DNA of 46,807 nucleotides from an uncultured archaeon (GTDB lineage Archaea; Nanobdellota; Nanobdellia; Pacearchaeales; GW2011-AR1). The stretch spans positions 80,371 to 127,177 of the forward strand of contig CAIPOI010000005.1 in NCBI GenBank assembly GCA_903866625.1. The letters are read 5' to 3'. The position numbers and the translations under genes were made by a program. This document shows, one piece after another, positions 469 to 43,361 of the stretch. Positions within the stretch are counted from its first letter, which is position 1; each line of letters starts with the position of its first letter. Below the pieces are notes generated by a model, which searched no databases, was not told the origin of the DNA, and saw only the letters and a list, made by a program, of their open reading frames with translations.

Positions 469-987
469 TTATGCTCTTTTCCAATTAATCTCAAAATAAG
501 TTATATCTTCTTCAGAATCTATTAGGGCAATTAAAAGAATTTTATTTGTTGAATTTGCAACTCTGGCTGATGAGCAGAATTCTTTAGTATTCATTTTATC
601 TTGAGTCGGAATTAAAATTAGGTATTTTGCATGTTCCTTTCCTGGCTTTTGACCCTTTTCATAACATCTAAAATCTGCGCCAAATTTTAATCCCTCTTTT
701 AAGATATATCCTTTTTCTCTTAAATCTCTAAAAACTAAATACTTCTTCATTAAATTCTTATGTTTTTTTAAGTATTTTCTAATTAAATCTTGGACTGTTG
801 ATTTACTTATATTTGAGATAACTTCTGCTTTTTTGGTTTCAATTAGATACAATACCTCATATAACGAATAAACTACTTTTCCATTAGAGAGTTCACCAAA
901 TCCACTTTTTTGATTTAGTGCTATGGCTAAGCTTGAATTTGAATAAAAGCTGTTATTCATTTCATAAATCTTTATTTTTTCTTCCAT
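469..987 (-). CDS. endA: tRNA-splicing endonuclease (short single-unit type)
   Basis: C-terminal motif KYLVFRDLREKGYILKEGLKFGADFRCYEKG...HAKYLILIP typical of archaeal EndA; 172 aa. Confidence 0.93.
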   Translation of the reverse strand: MEEKIKIYEMNNSFYSNSSLAIALNQKSGFGELSNGKVVYSLYEVLYLIETKKAEVISNISKSTVQDLIRKYLKKHKNLMKKYLVFRDLREKGYILKEGLKFGADFRCYEKGQKPGKEHAKYLILIPTQDKMNTKEFCSSARVANSTNKILLIALIDSEEDITYFEINWKRA

Positions 988-1042
988 ATTCTTAAAACAC
1001 GAGTTAGAAAAAATATTTAAACCTATGGTTTCTTAGTTTTCT

Positions 1043-1102
1043 ATGCAAAAGCTAGCACAAACATTAGTTCTGGGATTAGTGTTAGTCATGACTCTCTTAT
1101 AA
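1043..1102 (+). CDS. Putative 19-aa hydrophobic microprotein
   Basis: ATG...TAA encodes MQKLAQTLVLGLVLVMTLL; TTTAAA-like box about 25 nt upstream; stop codon lies inside a hairpin/T-tract. Confidence 0.25.
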   Translation: MQKLAQTLVLGLVLVMTLL

Positions 1103-1122
1103 AAGAGTCATTTATTTTTCTT
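1088..1122 (+). terminator. Intrinsic-terminator-like hairpin
   Basis: ATGACTCT-cttataaa-AGAGTCAT (8 bp perfect) followed by ttatttttctt. Confidence 0.5.
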
Positions 1123-1127
1123 ATAAA

Positions 1128-1451
1128 ATGGATGATTATTATGTTTTCTATGATAGGGTTCCAAAAACCGCACAATTTTTTAGCATTAAGCCCGAGGAGT
1201 CTATAGCTATTCCGCGACATGTTAGATATGACATTATTCGAGATAGATTGACTGGAAACGATATTGGGATTGCAGTTTATAATGGTAGTGCGCCTTCAGG
1301 GTTTAGAAGTCATATAAGTTCCTCTGCTTGGGTATTCTGGAAAGTTGGAAGTCTTGTAAATCCTGTTGTTAGGGCTTTTCCAGAGATTCCTCATGGGGGA
1401 AATATAATTTTAGACTCACGAGGAAATAATTTAAAAACCGGAGTTTCTTAA
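1128..1451 (+). CDS. Hypothetical protein
   Basis: 107-aa ORF; no family recognised. Confidence 0.5.
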   Translation: MDDYYVFYDRVPKTAQFFSIKPEESIAIPRHVRYDIIRDRLTGNDIGIAVYNGSAPSGFRSHISSSAWVFWKVGSLVNPVVRAFPEIPHGGNIILDSRGNNLKTGVS

Positions 1452-1469
1452 CTGAATGAGAATAGCGAT

Positions 1470-4412
1470 ATGGTAACCAAAAAGAAAGTTGAGCAGAAAA
1501 TAGAACAAAAACAAGAATCTAATAAATTAGACTTTTCAGTTATAGAGAAAAAGTGGCAAGAAGCTTGGGAAAAAAGCAGGGTGTTTGAAGTTTCTGAAGA
1601 TCTTAAAAGAAAAAAATTTTATGTGCTTGAAATGTTTCCCTACCCTTCTGGTGCTGGAATTCATATGGGTCACGCTTTTAATTATACTATTGGTGATATT
1701 TTTGCTAGATTCAAGAGGATGAATGGTTTTAATGTTCTTTATCCTATGGGTTATGACTCTTTAGGATTGCCCGCTGAAAACGCTGCTATAAAAAATAAAA
1801 CTCATCCAGAAGATTATACTCACAAGTCTATTGCTAATTTTATAAAACAACAAAAAACTCTTGGACTTAGTTATGATTGGTCTAGGCAAATTAACACTGC
1901 TAACCCTGAATACTACAAATGGGATCAGTGGATTTTCTTAAAGATGTTTGAAAAAGGTTTGGTTTATGAGAAAGAAGCGTCTGTTAATTGGTGTTCTAGT
2001 TGTAAAACTATAATTTCTAATGAACAAGCTCAGGGAGGAAAATGTGAAAGATGCGGTACTAAAATTGAAATAAGGCAAATGAAACAACTTTTTTTGAGAA
2101 TTACAGATTACGCTGATAGGCTTCTTGAGGGTCATAAAAAACTTAATTGGCCTGAAAAAACAATCGCTATGCAGAAAAATTGGATTGGCAAGAGTTATGG
2201 AACTGAGATTAAATTTGGAATAAATGGCGAATATTGGAATGTATTTACAACAAGACCAGATACGCTTTTCGGAGTAACATTTATGGTTGTTTCTGCTCAG
2301 CATCCAAAATTGGATAAGCTTGTAACAAAAGAGCAGAGAAAAGAAGTCGATAAATTCTTGAAAAAGCTTAAGTCTGTTTCTGAAAAAGAATTGGAATCTC
2401 TTGAAAAAGAAGGAGTTTTTACAGGAAGTTATGCTATTAATCCTGTAACAGGAGATAAAGTTCCGGTTTATGCAGGAAATTTTGTTGTAGCAGATTATGC
2501 TGGCGGCATGGTTATGGCTGTTCCAGCACATGATCAAAGGGATTTTGAATTTGCAAAGAAGTATAAGATAAAAATTAAACAGGTGATTGAACCCCTATAC
2601 GAATCTACAGATGGTTTTGATGCATTTCATAAAACTGAACCAAAAATAGATAAAGAAGTAGTAGTTGCTATAATCAAAAATCCAAAGAATCTAAAATACC
2701 TTTGTTTGAAATGGAAGAAAAATTCTTGGAAAACTTTTGTGAGTGGGGGGATAGAGAAGGATGAAGATGTTTTAACTGCAGCAAGAAGAGAAATTGAAGA
2801 GGAAACAGGTTATACTGACTTAAAATTTATTAAGACTCTTCCTGGGAAAGTTCATACAAGAATATATCATAATTTGAAAAAAGAAAATCGTGAAGCTCAT
2901 ATGAGTTCTATTTATTTTGAATTAAATAGCGACAAAAGAAAAGAAATCTCCAAGGAAGAGAATGAACTTCACGAAATATTATGGTTAACTGATAATGATG
3001 TAGAAAAATTAGGCATAGACGAAGATATCAAATTAATATGGGCACAATTTAAACAAGAAACGGCGTATACGGGGGAAGGATATGTAACTAATTCTCCGGG
3101 GTTTAATGGATTAAATAATGAAGAAGCTAAGAAAAAAATAACTGATTGGTTGATTAGCAAGAAACTTGGAAGAAAAGTTGTGAACTATAAACTTAAAGAT
3201 TGGAGTGTTGCAAGACAAAGATATTGGGGAACACCAATACCTCTTGTTCATTGTGATAAATGTGGATTAGTTCCTGTTCCTGAAAAGGATTTACCTGTAA
3301 AACTTCCTGAAAAAGTAAAATTTGGAGAAGGCAATCCCTTGCTTACTAATAAAGAGTGGTTGGATGTCAAATGTCCTAAATGTGGGGGAAAAGCACATAG
3401 AGAAGCAAATACTATGGATACTTTTGTAAACTCTTCCTGGTATTTTTTAAGATATTGTGATTCTCATAATACTAAAGAAATATTTGATAAAAAGAAAGTA
3501 AAATATTGGATGCCCATAGATTTGTATATTGGTGGAGCTGAGCATGCTTGTATGCATTTAATCTATTGTAGATTTTATACTATGTTTTTACATGATTTGG
3601 GTTTAATAGATTTTGATGAACCTGCTCCAAGATTATTTCATCAGGGCATGATTAATGGTTATGACGGGCAGAGAATGTCAAAATCAAAAGGTAATGGGGT
3701 AGAACCTTTAGAAACTATGAAAAAATATGGAGTGGATACGACTCGATTTTATCTTATGTCTGAAGCTTCTCCAGATAAGGGATTTAATTGGAATGATTCC
3801 GGAATTCAAGGTTCTTTAAGAATTATTAATAAAGTTTTGACAATTTTAGATAATCTAAAATTTGGAAGAGATAGCAAAGAATTAGAAGTTAAACTCAATA
3901 ATTCTATAAAAAGTATAACCGAACAAATTGAAAATTTAGATTATAGAAAATCTACAATTGAGCTTAGAGAGTTATTTGATTTAATTGCTCAGCAAAAAGA
4001 AATTTCAAAGGAAAGTTTTGTAAGTGCTATTAAACTTTTAGCTCCATTTTGTCCTCATATTGCTGAAGAGATTTGGCAGAAGATTGGAATGAATAAGTCT
4101 GGGAAAGATTTTATTTCTCTTGCTTCATGGCCAAAATATGATGAGAAGAAATTAAAATTACAAGAAGATAGTTTAAGTATAGAAGAAAAGATGATTGGTT
4201 ATGTTAAATCTATTACAGATAAGTTTCCAGATAAAAAAAATGTTTATCTTTATGTTATGCCGTTTGAACTTGGAAAGATTAAAGCAGAAAGAATAAGTAA
4301 AGCCATAGGTAAAATGGTAGATATCTGGGCAGTTAATAATAAGGCTAAGTTTGATCCAAATAATAGGGCTAGTAAAGCAAGACCGGGTATGCCTGGAGTT
4401 TATTTGGAGTAG
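1470..4412 (+). CDS. leuS: Leucyl-tRNA synthetase, bacterial type, with internal Nudix domain
   Basis: MFPYPSGAGIHMGHAFNYTIGD (HIGH region), GMINGYDGQRMSKSKGN (KMSKS), TAYTGEGYVTNSPGFNGL; internal Nudix box GGIEKDEDVLTAARREIEEETGY. Confidence 0.95.
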   Translation: MVTKKKVEQKIEQKQESNKLDFSVIEKKWQEAWEKSRVFEVSEDLKRKKFYVLEMFPYPSGAGIHMGHAFNYTIGDIFARFKRMNGFNVLYPMGYDSLGLPAENAAIKNKTHPEDYTHKSIANFIKQQKTLGLSYDWSRQINTANPEYYKWDQWIFLKMFEKGLVYEKEASVNWCSSCKTIISNEQAQGGKCERCGTKIEIRQMKQLFLRITDYADRLLEGHKKLNWPEKTIAMQKNWIGKSYGTEIKFGINGEYWNVFTTRPDTLFGVTFMVVSAQHPKLDKLVTKEQRKEVDKFLKKLKSVSEKELESLEKEGVFTGSYAINPVTGDKVPVYAGNFVVADYAGGMVMAVPAHDQRDFEFAKKYKIKIKQVIEPLYESTDGFDAFHKTEPKIDKEVVVAIIKNPKNLKYLCLKWKKNSWKTFVSGGIEKDEDVLTAARREIEEETGYTDLKFIKTLPGKVHTRIYHNLKKENREAHMSSIYFELNSDKRKEISKEENELHEILWLTDNDVEKLGIDEDIKLIWAQFKQETAYTGEGYVTNSPGFNGLNNEEAKKKITDWLISKKLGRKVVNYKLKDWSVARQRYWGTPIPLVHCDKCGLVPVPEKDLPVKLPEKVKFGEGNPLLTNKEWLDVKCPKCGGKAHREANTMDTFVNSSWYFLRYCDSHNTKEIFDKKKVKYWMPIDLYIGGAEHACMHLIYCRFYTMFLHDLGLIDFDEPAPRLFHQGMINGYDGQRMSKSKGNGVEPLETMKKYGVDTTRFYLMSEASPDKGFNWNDSGIQGSLRIINKVLTILDNLKFGRDSKELEVKLNNSIKSITEQIENLDYRKSTIELRELFDLIAQQKEISKESFVSAIKLLAPFCPHIAEEIWQKIGMNKSGKDFISLASWPKYDEKKLKLQEDSLSIEEKMIGYVKSITDKFPDKKNVYLYVMPFELGKIKAERISKAIGKMVDIWAVNNKAKFDPNNRASKARPGMPGVYLE

Positions 4413-16491: not shown

Positions 16492-16605
16492 TGGCCCCAA
16501 GAGGATTTGAACCCCTATCTTCCGGTTACTCCAAGATTTGCCACCTCTTTTATCTTACAAATCTTGCCGAAGCCAGATGCTCTATCCAGGTTGAGCTATA
16601 GGGCC
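16492..16605 (-). tRNA. tRNA-Arg(TCG) with 40-nt BHB intron at 37/38
   Basis: Minus strand: GGCCCTA TA GCTC..GAGC A TCTGG CTTCGG [intron 16566-16527] A CCGGA AGAT AGGGGTTCAAATCCTCT TGGGGCC A. BHB: CTTC/GGAG central helix with 3-nt bulges; intron stem AAGATTT/AAATCTT. Confidence 0.93.
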
Positions 16606-30594: not shown

Positions 30595-32010
30595 ATGATA
30601 ACAATTAACGATATGAAGAAAATAGGACCGGAATTTATAGAGGATTTTATTTCTAGAGCTAAAAATGGAGAAAAATACTCTTTTAAGGGAAGAATTACTT
30701 CGGTTAGAAAACATGCAGAGAGAGTATTTTTCGACTTGTCAGACCATACCGGTACTATCCAGGTTGTTATGGAAAAATGCAACTTTAAAGATTGCAAGAA
30801 AGTTTCTGCTTTGAATCCTGGTTCTTATATTGAAGCTTTGGGAGTATATTCTAATTCTAGGAATCCTCCTGAAATAAAAGCAGAGTCTATTAAGATTATT
30901 TCTGAAGCTGTTTTGCCTTTATCTCCTACTCCTTGGGAAATAGATGGATTAAGTGCGGATAATGTCAATCAGATTTTTAGTTATACTGGTTTTTATTTAG
31001 CAAATCCTCAGAGGGCTGCGGTTCTTAAAATAAAGACTAATTTTGTTAAAGCTTTACATGATTATTTTCACAATAATAAGTTTACTTTAGTAGAGCCGCC
31101 CATTCTTACTGATAAAATTTTATATGAAACTGAAAAAGCTGTTAGGGCAGAAGTACATGGAGAAAAAGTATTCTTGTCTCAATGCGCTACTTTTGAATTA
31201 GAGCCTTTGGCTATGGTTTTTGGAAAAGTTTATACTATTTCCCCTGCTTTTAGAAACGAAAAGGGCGGTTCAAAAAGACATCTTGCAGAATATACTCATG
31301 CCAAAGCTGAAGCATTGTTTGTGGATATTAATGATCTCATGGCTTTAGCTGGGGATTCTATCTATAATGCTATGATAAAAACAGTAGAGATTAGCAAAAG
31401 AGAATTAGATTTTTTGAAAATTAATATCGATTTGGAATCTCTAAACCCAAAAAATTATGTGAGTATGACTTACGATGAAGCAGTAGAGATTCTTCATAAA
31501 AATGGTTCTAATACTGTTTATGGAGAAGGTTTAGCAAGAAGTGACGAAATGATTTTGACTAAGCATGTAGGTAATAAATATCTGTGGGTTAAATTTCTTC
31601 CTTTTGCTTCAGAAGGTTTTCCTTATAAAAAAGTTCCAGGTTCTCCTCATCTATCTATGACTTGCGATTTAATTGCGCCGCATGGGGCTGGAGAAATGGT
31701 AGGTGTTGCAGAGAAAACTACAGATATGGAAGAAATTATAGACAATCTCATTAAAAAAGGTAAGAAAGAAGACATAAAGAAATATTGGAAGTATGTTTTA
31801 CTTAGAAAATATGGCTTGCCTCCTCATGGCGGAATTGGTGCTGCTCCTGAAAGAATCATATATGGCTTGCTTGGTTTGAATCATATAAGACTTACTAAAC
31901 CTTGGCCTAGATATCCTGACAGAAGAATCAATCCTACTAAAGAAGATAAACTGAATCCTTGGAGAAACAAGGAGATAGAGGGTATTATAAAGAAGTTTTC
32001 GCTTAAATAA
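30595..32010 (+). CDS. asnS: Asparaginyl-tRNA synthetase-like (eukaryote-like motif 2)
   Basis: OB-fold N-terminus; SPAFRNEKGGSKRHLAEYTHAKAEALF; LRKYGLPPHGGIGAAPERIIYGLLGLNHIRLTKPWPRYPDRRINP. Confidence 0.8.
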   Translation: MITINDMKKIGPEFIEDFISRAKNGEKYSFKGRITSVRKHAERVFFDLSDHTGTIQVVMEKCNFKDCKKVSALNPGSYIEALGVYSNSRNPPEIKAESIKIISEAVLPLSPTPWEIDGLSADNVNQIFSYTGFYLANPQRAAVLKIKTNFVKALHDYFHNNKFTLVEPPILTDKILYETEKAVRAEVHGEKVFLSQCATFELEPLAMVFGKVYTISPAFRNEKGGSKRHLAEYTHAKAEALFVDINDLMALAGDSIYNAMIKTVEISKRELDFLKINIDLESLNPKNYVSMTYDEAVEILHKNGSNTVYGEGLARSDEMILTKHVGNKYLWVKFLPFASEGFPYKKVPGSPHLSMTCDLIAPHGAGEMVGVAEKTTDMEEIIDNLIKKGKKEDIKKYWKYVLLRKYGLPPHGGIGAAPERIIYGLLGLNHIRLTKPWPRYPDRRINPTKEDKLNPWRNKEIEGIIKKFSLK

Positions 32011-32097
32011 GTCTCCATAGCTCAGTTGGTAGAGCACATGACTGTTAAAAAATATGTAGAAATCATGGGGTCAGAGGTTCGAGTCCTCTTGGAGACG
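32011..32097 (+). tRNA. tRNA-Asn(GTT) with 14-nt BHB intron at 37/38
   Basis: GTCTCCA TA GCTC AGTTGGTA GAGC A CATGA CTGTTA [AAAAATATGTAGAA, 32048-32061] A TCATG GGGT CAGAGGTTCGAGTCCTCT TGGAGAC G; BHB central helix CTGT/GTAG with 3-nt bulges TA|A and AA|A. Confidence 0.93.
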
Positions 32098-42125: not shown

Positions 42126-42398
42126 CGTCTCCAAGAGGACTCGAACCTCTGACCCCATGATTACAACCTTTTCCAATTGCTTGGAGGGTAGGACTATACC
42201 ATTACCATAACCTTTGTTTTAGGTAGCGAGTCTCTAGTCTCTGCACCTTCCCGTTAGGGCTTGGCTCAGGATTGCCCACGTGGGGTTTCCCTGAATTTAC
42301 TCGCTGTTCATTCTCAAGTTTCCTTGAGAAGCTGCTATTTTGTTCATCTTACTGAACTTGTCAACAGTCATGTGCTCTACCAACTGAGCTATGGAGAC
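42126..42398 (-). tRNA. tRNA-Asn(GTT) interrupted by a 200-nt group I intron at 35/36
   Basis: Exons 42398-42364 and 42163-42126 give the same mature sequence as the tRNA-Asn at 32011-32097. Confidence 0.93.
42164..42363 (-). other. Group I self-splicing intron (IC3-like, no homing endonuclease ORF)
   Basis: P1 exon CUGU / IGS GCAG (u-G wobble); P2 TTCTCAAG-GAAA-CTTGAGAA; P/Q AATTCAGGGAAACC / GCAATCCTGAGCC; R/S GGTGCAGAGACTA / TATAGTCC; P9 TCCAA-GCAA-TTGGA; terminal G. Confidence 0.93.
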
Positions 42399-42457: not shown

Positions 42458-42940
42458 TTAATATTCTTCAGCTTTTTCTTTTTCTAGATAAGCATAAACA
42501 TTTGCATGTTTGCTGCCTGCAATTAAGTTTTTTAAAGCATATTCTGCTTTGGTTACCTGTTCTTCAATTCCGATAATTCCAACAAAGTTATCATGCAAAG
42601 CAAGACTGCAACCTGTAAGATATTCAAAATTATCCATTACTTTTCTTTCTCTGCCTATAACTCTTGCTCTAACCTGACTTAGATTCTTTCTCTTAGCTAT
42701 GTTCTTTATGTTTATCTTTTTGAATACAAATTCTTCATTTTTTAAATCTAAAGCCACTTGAATTGAAAATCCTAAATCCACTGCTTCTACAAAACTTAGA
42801 GCTATTAATTCTTTTTCAGGTTCTCCATCAATTATTAGAACTTTTGCTTCATTAGATAGTTTAATTTTAAAGGCGTTTTCTATTTCTCTTTTGTTATTCA
42901 GAATCTTTCTTATATTTTCTGTATAGATTTTTTCAGTCAT
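42458..42940 (-). CDS. KH-domain RNA-binding protein (Dim2/Pno1/Krr1-like)
   Basis: ARVIGRERKVMDNFEYLTGCSLALHDNFVGIIGIEEQVTKAEYALKNLIAGSKHANVYAYLE; start at MTEKIYTENIR. Confidence 0.85.
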   Translation of the reverse strand: MTEKIYTENIRKILNNKREIENAFKIKLSNEAKVLIIDGEPEKELIALSFVEAVDLGFSIQVALDLKNEEFVFKKINIKNIAKRKNLSQVRARVIGRERKVMDNFEYLTGCSLALHDNFVGIIGIEEQVTKAEYALKNLIAGSKHANVYAYLEKEKAEEY

Positions 42941-42992
42941 ACAAAGACCTCCAGCAGGTTTCTTGACATCCAGCAACCGTTCTTACCATGAT

Positions 42993-43361
42993 TTAGAACT
43001 CATTAGAGATTCCTTTTATGAATCCTCTTTTTTCTAACCACTGAACTGCAGCGGGAGTATATGAAAAAATTATATCTCCTTTTTTATCTCCTTCAAATTC
43101 CCATGGTTCGATTAAAACAATATTTCCAGGGCGTATCCACAAATCTCTCTTTAATCTTCCAGGAACTCTGCAATTTCTTTGTTTACCATCAAAACAGGAT
43201 ACAACCATTCTATTAGCTCCAACCCTTTGATCTACCTTACCTATAACTTCTCTGCCTCTTGGAGTTCTGACTCTGCCTAACTGTTGATTATTGTTTTCAG
43301 GATTTGTTTGAGCATTTCCATTATCTTGATTACTTTCTTGAAATTCAAAATTATCTGCCAT
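42993..43361 (-). CDS. Translation initiation factor aIF-1A
   Basis: RVRTPRGREVIGKVDQRVGANRMVVSCFDGKQRNCRVPGRLKRDLWIRPGNIVLIEPWEFEGDKKGDIIFSYT. Confidence 0.95.
   Translation of the reverse strand: MADNFEFQESNQDNGNAQTNPENNNQQLGRVRTPRGREVIGKVDQRVGANRMVVSCFDGKQRNCRVPGRLKRDLWIRPGNIVLIEPWEFEGDKKGDIIFSYTPAAVQWLEKRGFIKGISNEF

Follow-up and report, generated by a model that had tools for sequence, protein, structure and literature searches.

A group I intron interrupting one of two tRNA-Asn genes of a DPANN archaeon, with relatives in archaea and Candidatus Omnitrophota

Introns of archaeal tRNA genes are taken to be BHB introns spliced by proteins. The window analysed here, a stretch of 46,807 nt from contig CAIPOI010000005.1 of an uncultured DPANN archaeon, holds a tRNA-Asn(GUU) gene in which 200 nt separate U35 from U36, within the anticodon. 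The locus raises the questions of what kind of intron this is, whether it resides in an archaeon, and from where it came. We found that the insert is a complete group I intron, which meets both the sequence and the structure criteria of that class; guanosine-initiated self-splicing is inferred from these features, with no splicing experiment or RNA data behind it. In the reading that we consider very likely, a self-splicing group I intron, IC3-type by appearance, interrupts one of two tRNA-Asn genes of the host, and is a member, lacking a homing endonuclease, of a mobile family shared with Omnitrophota through cross-domain transfer.

The intron, its host tRNA and its fold

The intron begins with UGAC and ends with GGUUG, and the 3' exon opens with UAAUC. 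When spliced, the exons form a full 73-nt tRNA-Asn with a GUU anticodon, which matches a second tRNA-Asn gene of the window at 73/73 positions. The 5' exon terminates in CUGU at 42367-42364, and the U.G at the 5' splice site and the terminal G at 42164 are both present and are likewise kept in the archaeal homologues. The Rfam group I model RF00028 (gathering score 50 bits) matched over its full length (1-253) at 42170-42373, with 77.9 bits and E=1e-19, and this is the single RF00028 match in the 0.73-Mb genome. A model made from seven homologues, R1, scored the intron at 205.8 bits, R1 itself being built partly from the window sequence; a family search together with R1 yielded the close relatives described below. 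ARAGORN at default settings missed the interrupted tRNA-Asn (42126-42398), a case of annotation tools overlooking such genes, and found the homologue L147 when long introns were allowed.

Table 1. Positions of the features discussed, in window coordinates
Feature	Position	Strand	Basis
EndA tRNA-splicing endonuclease (domain match), enzyme expected to cut the BHB intron	496..750	-	PF01974, 93 bits, at G000:C5:80866-81120
asnS, class II D/K/N aminoacyl-tRNA synthetase	30595..32010	+	PF00152, 139.6 bits; PF01336
Second tRNA-Asn(GUU), directly 3' of asnS	32011..32097	+	RF00005, 62.7 bits; alignment; ARAGORN Asn gtt, 14-nt intron
14-nt intron of second copy, canonical 37/38	32048..32061	+	sequence; ARAGORN i(38,14); BHB geometry deduced by hand
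tRNA-Asn 3' exon, U36-G73	42126..42163	-	sequence; same as 3' exon of second copy
Group I intron, 200 nt, between U35 and U36, ending in omega-G (42164)	42164..42363	-	RF00028; model R1; covariation in 7 homologues
P9 hairpin, UCCAA-GCAA-UUGGA	42172..42185	-	compensatory changes in 2/5 pairs
P7 guanosine-binding helix, GACUA 42239-42235 / UAGUC 42196-42192	42192..42239	-	invariant in 7 homologues
P8, UACC 42225-42222 / GGUA 42206-42203	42203..42225	-	compensatory changes in 2/4 pairs
P3, GCGAGU 42304-42299 / ACUCGC 42231-42226, enclosing P4-P6 and the P7 5' strand	42226..42304	-	covariation; Rfam alignment
P4, UCAGG 42294-42290 / CCUGA 42270-42266, with P5	42266..42294	-	P4 invariant; P5 one compensatory pair
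P2 hairpin, UUCUCAAG-GAAA-CUUGAGAA	42311..42330	-	compensatory changes in 7/8 pairs
IGS GCAG, pairing with exon CUGU (P1, terminal U.G wobble)	42332..42335	-	sequence; invariant in 7 aligned archaeal introns
Short L1 loop region; position of the homologues' HNH ORF	42336..42363	-	comparison with L006/L148, L007/L130, L009/L128, L010/L140, L151
tRNA-Asn(GUU) 5' exon, G1-U35, ending CUGU	42364..42398	-	sequence; exon join equals copy 32011-32097; intron-less L061 orthologue
KH-domain (Dim2/KRR1-type) protein, upstream of the group I tRNA-Asn, syntenic marker	42458..42976	-	PF21800, 28.3 bits; adjoins tRNA-Asn in many DPANN loci
aIF1A, archaeal marker	42993..43361	-	PF01176, 66.5 bits

The fold was assessed in an alignment of seven homologues, using a 41-pair structure that includes P7. 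In this alignment 98.2% of cells were paired and 14 pairs had changed on both sides, as compared with 91.3% and 5.6 pairs in shuffles, and 0/500 shuffles scored as high. Shifting the 3' partners by 1-3 columns lowered the pairing to 26-50%. The covariation is carried by P2, P3, P5, P8 and P9; P4 and P7 are invariant and are therefore neutral, giving no evidence of this kind either way. The intron also folds more stably than its shuffles (z-score -2.8). One point against the self-splicing account is that P10 would span only about 2 bp. The small size, the tRNA host and the short P5 without P5abc fit subgroup IC3, a possible assignment that was made by eye only.

The first-pass annotation, which worked from the sequence alone, had proposed a group I intron at U35/U36 of a tRNA-Asn, with these splice sites and no ORF, in an archaeal host. 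All of these claims held, and the elements that it named (P1, P2, P4, P7, P9 and the terminal G) were all present where it had placed them. The covariance check against RF00028 that it suggested gave the significant match above. Its view of the intron as IC3-like, with an affinity to cyanobacterial and plastid tRNA-Leu introns, held in part: the type fits by eye, and the closest kin that we found are introns in tRNA-Asn and tRNA-Tyr of Omnitrophota rather than cyanobacterial or plastid ones.

The fold, the splice-site rules and their conservation are shown, including the pairing of exon CUGU(32-35) with the IGS GCAG in the folded pre-tRNA. The chemistry is inferred. An exogenous guanosine bound in P7 would attack after U35, and the 3'-OH of U35 would then attack after omega-G, which would ligate U35 to U36 and re-form the GUU anticodon.

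The archaeal locus and its twin tRNA-Asn gene

The intron lies in a contig of 205 kb that is archaeal by its genes for aIF1A, the Dim2/KRR1-type KH protein and EndA, from a bin of 89% completeness and 0.2% estimated contamination, and homologous loci bear the public-record labels Candidatus Pacearchaeota or Nanoarchaeota. A genome of the same genus (G082, locus L061) shows the identical order of aIF1A, the Dim2-type gene and tRNA-Asn with the intron absent, that is, an empty syntenic site. A Dim2-like protein is also encoded upstream of the interrupted tRNA-Asn in L004, L006, L007, L009, L010 and L012. Since this upstream neighbourhood is conserved with and without the intron, the tRNA gene appears to be resident while the intron comes and goes; the occupied/empty polymorphism itself is shown. 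A bacterial or misassembled contig, which had been named beforehand as a finding that would refute the annotation, is not supported, because of the length of the contig, the low contamination, the archaeal neighbours and the intron-less version of the locus in the same genus. The archaeal context of this tRNA-borne group I intron is thus secure.

The second tRNA-Asn gene lies 10 kb from the interrupted one and begins at the base next to the asnS stop codon; the flanks of the two copies are unlike beyond a few T residues. The assignment of the synthetase gene to AsnRS is likely, although it rests on this adjacency and on judgement, the Pfam match being to D/K/N synthetases. The 14-nt intron of this copy meets the BHB criterion: CUGU(32-35) and GUAG form a 4-bp helix with two wobble pairs, between the 3-nt bulges UA^A and AA^A, and the cut after the second base of each bulge (UAA, AAA) was judged by hand. 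EndA and RtcB are both encoded in the genome and would be expected to remove this intron, so that the BHB copy would supply the same mature tRNA. With identical exons around a group I and a BHB intron, one mature tRNA apparently arises through two unrelated splicing chemistries. Because the BHB copy could supply tRNA-Asn, the group I copy of the window is not shown to be needed.

In a relative of a different genus (G020, locus L062), an intron-less tRNA-Asn is likewise situated close to asnS, and it is this asnS that shows 84% identity over the part compared. The remaining tRNA-Asn genes callable by ARAGORN in the relatives fetched by tRNA search are all intron-less. Elsewhere in the window, at 16492-16605 (minus strand), the anticodon region of a tRNA is interrupted by about 40 nt, which probably represent a further BHB intron, and for other parts of the genome ARAGORN reported tRNA-Tyr, -Trp and -Ser with short introns.

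The intron family in DPANN archaea and Omnitrophota

The survey of related tRNA-Asn loci that the first-pass annotation had called for showed that at least 10 further DPANN genomes (L122, L123, L128, L130, L138, L140, L147, L148, L150 and L151) have this intron in an identical position, each restoring the loop CUGUUAA by a CUGU^UAA join, and found an empty site in the same genus. The carriers include Woesearchaeota (L138, L151) and a Nanoarchaeia genome in two contigs (G291), where the intron L147 sits in a contig of 509 kb. Five archaeal members (L128, L130, L140, L148 and L151) have a P1 loop taken up by an ORF of about 110 aa that continues into the ribozyme core, as seen in the locus pairs L006/L148, L007/L130, L009/L128 and L010/L140. 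An HNH ORF occupies L1 in nine bacterial or viral-contig members as well. The match of the L140 protein to Pfam HNH is marginal (E=5e-4, 20.7 bits), slightly below the curated cut-off of 21.4. In L123 the HNH ORF is broken, and in the remaining archaeal copies it is absent; introns with the ORF measure 490-515 nt, as against 192-258 nt without it. The window copy encodes neither an HNH nor any other ORF, so that the earlier statement that there is no homing endonuclease held for this copy and is amended for the family, whose homologues carry the HNH ORF in the same loop.

Of the features expected of homing, an endonuclease gene is not met in the window copy, and empty and occupied sites in close relatives are met. 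We accordingly place the window intron, as a proposal, among the endonuclease-less members of a mobile family. The HNH product of its relatives would presumably cut intron-less tRNA-Asn genes, into which the intron would then be copied; this is inferred from the HNH domain, the patchy presence and the empty site.

A BLAST search with the spliced tRNA-Asn (E<=1) found no second tRNA-Asn in the ten other intron-bearing archaeal genomes, and the other matches that ARAGORN could name there were tRNAs for Lys, Thr, Phe, Arg, Leu and further amino acids, but none for Asn. A highly divergent copy could escape this search and some bins are incomplete. The result suggests that these genomes have no tRNA-Asn besides the interrupted one, and that splicing must work in them.

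Several further observations were made in these archaea. In L122 the tRNA 3' end is repeated downstream of the interrupted tRNA-Asn (BLAST matches also at G120:C13:58249-58273 and 58337-58359), and these repeats may be remnants of integration at the tRNA end. DPANN relatives hold more group I introns (L100-L121), some of whose ORFs extend into the core, comparable to those in the survey that Nawrocki, Jones and Eddy published in 2018; they mostly adjoin LSU rRNA-like sequence, and the lower-scoring model matches among them were left uncounted. L014 (573-774, in a tRNA whose anticodon is apparently CUU, for Lys) and L017 (in another tRNA) are more divergent tRNA group I introns from two DPANN bins, both on short contigs for which contamination is not excluded.

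An exact 24-mer from P7/P3 was scanned against 84,980 species genomes and returned 32 loci: 10 in DPANN archaea, 21 in Candidatus Omnitrophota and 1 in an 'uncultured bacterium'. Every locus with readable exons interrupts tRNA-Asn after CUGU (35/36); L135 and L149 contain masked stretches. Some of the loci lie on whole chromosomes (CP070837, CP070684, CP070807). R1 matches were found in 138/285 Omnitrophota genomes, with up to 5 per genome, and the hosts among the inspected loci were tRNA-Asn(GUU) and tRNA-Tyr(GUA), both interrupted after CUGU. L196-L214, for example, are ribozymes of this kind that interrupt tRNA-Tyr(GUA) at 35/36. Since tRNA-Asn and tRNA-Tyr share CUGU (32-35), the guide GCAG may explain the host range.

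When the Omnitrophota tRNA-Tyr introns were used as the outgroup, the tRNA-Asn introns of both domains formed one clade (100/100). Identity between the archaeal cores and the nearest Omnitrophota tRNA-Asn intron is 80-84%, as compared with 64-73% for the tRNA-Tyr introns of Omnitrophota. The HNH proteins, 53-62% identical between archaeal and bacterial ORFs in the same loop, split by domain at full support, with an archaeal clade of their own (100/99). In the tree of the ribozymes, archaeal and bacterial introns are weakly intermixed, and a single archaeal clade is not rejected by the AU test (p-AU 0.25). Cross-domain horizontal transfer would best explain a family at an identical tRNA site in both groups, and a single old transfer, followed by spread within each group, is the likely history. 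Rooting with the tRNA-Tyr introns left its direction unsettled. The prevalence in Omnitrophota and the sister tRNA-Tyr family tilt us toward Omnitrophota as the source, without proving it.

In phage collections, the intron resembled phage group I introns over part of its core only (coverage of 23-49% among the matches listed), and plasmid collections gave no match to the intron; no phage vector is therefore indicated. The single IMG/VR match, L154 (IMGVR_UViG_3300035537_000177, 850-3014), is an Omnitrophota-like interrupted tRNA-Asn with a recombinase-like ORF directly after it. We rejected it as a clear virus, as it has more the look of bacterial DNA or of an element that has integrated; the arrangement suggests that the tRNA is used for integration as well.

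Rival readings and known systems

Among the alternatives, the best survivor, though unlikely, is that the window copy is a splicing-dead relic, a silent tRNA pseudogene tolerated while the asnS-linked copy supplies tRNA-Asn. It is favoured by the second gene with identical exons and by the missing endonuclease gene. Against it, the core helices are all intact, compensatory substitutions are seen in the family, the exons are the same as those of the other copy throughout, and no second tRNA-Asn was found in other members. We infer that the window copy likely still splices.

A bolder reading takes the locus as a snapshot of intron-type replacement, in which the group I intron entered by cross-domain transfer and the duplicate gained a minimal BHB intron two nucleotides away. 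In its favour, the BHB intron takes for its paired strand the very exon tetranucleotide, CUGU, to which the group I guide also pairs, in keeping with the hypothesis of BHB descent from group I introns. The geometry is in part no coincidence, since this part of the anticodon loop is paired anyway in canonical 37/38 BHB introns, and we hold this reading to be very unlikely, though it is not ruled out.

Convergence, meaning that archaea and Omnitrophota separately acquired unrelated IC3 introns at a tRNA site that favours insertion, is also very unlikely. The sharing of CUGU by tRNA-Asn and tRNA-Tyr implies that the guide sequence favours the site, and the HNH proteins separate cleanly by domain. 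However, the cross-domain core identity exceeds that to the Omnitrophota tRNA-Tyr introns, the HNH ORF occupies the same loop with the identity given above, and the joint clade is fully supported.

Misassembly or misbinning of bacterial (e.g., Omnitrophota) DNA into an archaeal genome is all but excluded. The nearest non-DPANN relatives are bacterial, and it was on this ground that Nawrocki et al. left two archaeal IC3 hits out of account. However, the contig is long and its bin barely contaminated, with aIF1A and the Dim2/KRR1-type gene immediately upstream, and the Dim2-type gene recurs upstream in at least six more archaeal intron-bearing loci and in the intron-less copy of the same genus. 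The exons lack an encoded CCA, which most bacterial homologues have, and equal those of the archaeal second copy, and the intron is also present in the long Nanoarchaeia contig. Virtually excluded, too, is an ordinary BHB intron holding a chance group I-like fold and removed by EndA: the host is an archaeon with EndA, RtcB and other tRNAs with short introns, but the insertion is at 35/36 rather than 37/38, no BHB with a 4-bp helix and two 3-nt bulges spans both splice sites because CUGU pairs with GCAG near the 5' end of the intron, some 170 nt ahead of the 3' splice site, omega-G and the U.G accompany the full RF00028 match and covariation, and the bacteria that hold same-site homologues are not known to have archaeal EndA splicing.

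The reference for group I introns in archaea given in the first-pass annotation, Nawrocki, Jones and Eddy (2018), the only survey of such introns that we found, is correct, yet all 39 introns reported there are in rRNA genes, and the two IC3 hits were set aside as possibly non-archaeal (PMC6125680). Similarly, when a survey of tmRNAs in 2025 met an intron-bearing one in an archaeon, it regarded this as possible misbinning (PMC11915505). Our searches of the open-access literature turned up no description of group I introns from Omnitrophota or from archaeal tRNA. The 2018 introns resemble ours as group I ribozymes spread patchily over DPANN and other archaea, some with homing endonucleases. They differ in being IA3/IB4 introns of LSU or SSU rRNA, with LAGLIDADG endonuclease genes where one is found (PMC6125680), whereas the window intron has a tRNA host, is IC3-like and has HNH-bearing relatives. 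Taken together, the secure archaeal setting of this tRNA-borne family, its empty site, its HNH endonucleases and its sisters at the same position in bacteria indicate that introns of this kind reside in archaea and pass between domains.

The bacterial and plastid IC3 tRNA introns, namely those of cyanobacterial tRNA-Leu(UAA) and tRNA-fMet and of Azoarcus tRNA-Ile, are likewise small and compact, lie in the anticodon loop, and have omega-G and a U.G at the 5' site (see also PMC8450103, PMC3984707); the window intron differs in its tRNA and position (35/36 of tRNA-Asn), in the HNH ORF in L1 of its relatives and in its archaeal host. The introns of Omnitrophota tRNA-Asn and tRNA-Tyr share the site after CUGU and the core, and those in tRNA-Asn also share the position of the HNH ORF, but their host is bacterial, their HNH proteins form a separate clade and their cores are partly separate. 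Archaeal BHB tRNA introns also interrupt the anticodon loop of archaeal tRNAs, and one occupies the twin tRNA-Asn, but they are spliced by proteins, have no catalytic core and lie at 37/38. Because a single cell apparently uses two chemistries to make an identical mature RNA from its twin genes, the proposed competition between group I and BHB introns, or descent of one from the other, becomes directly testable.
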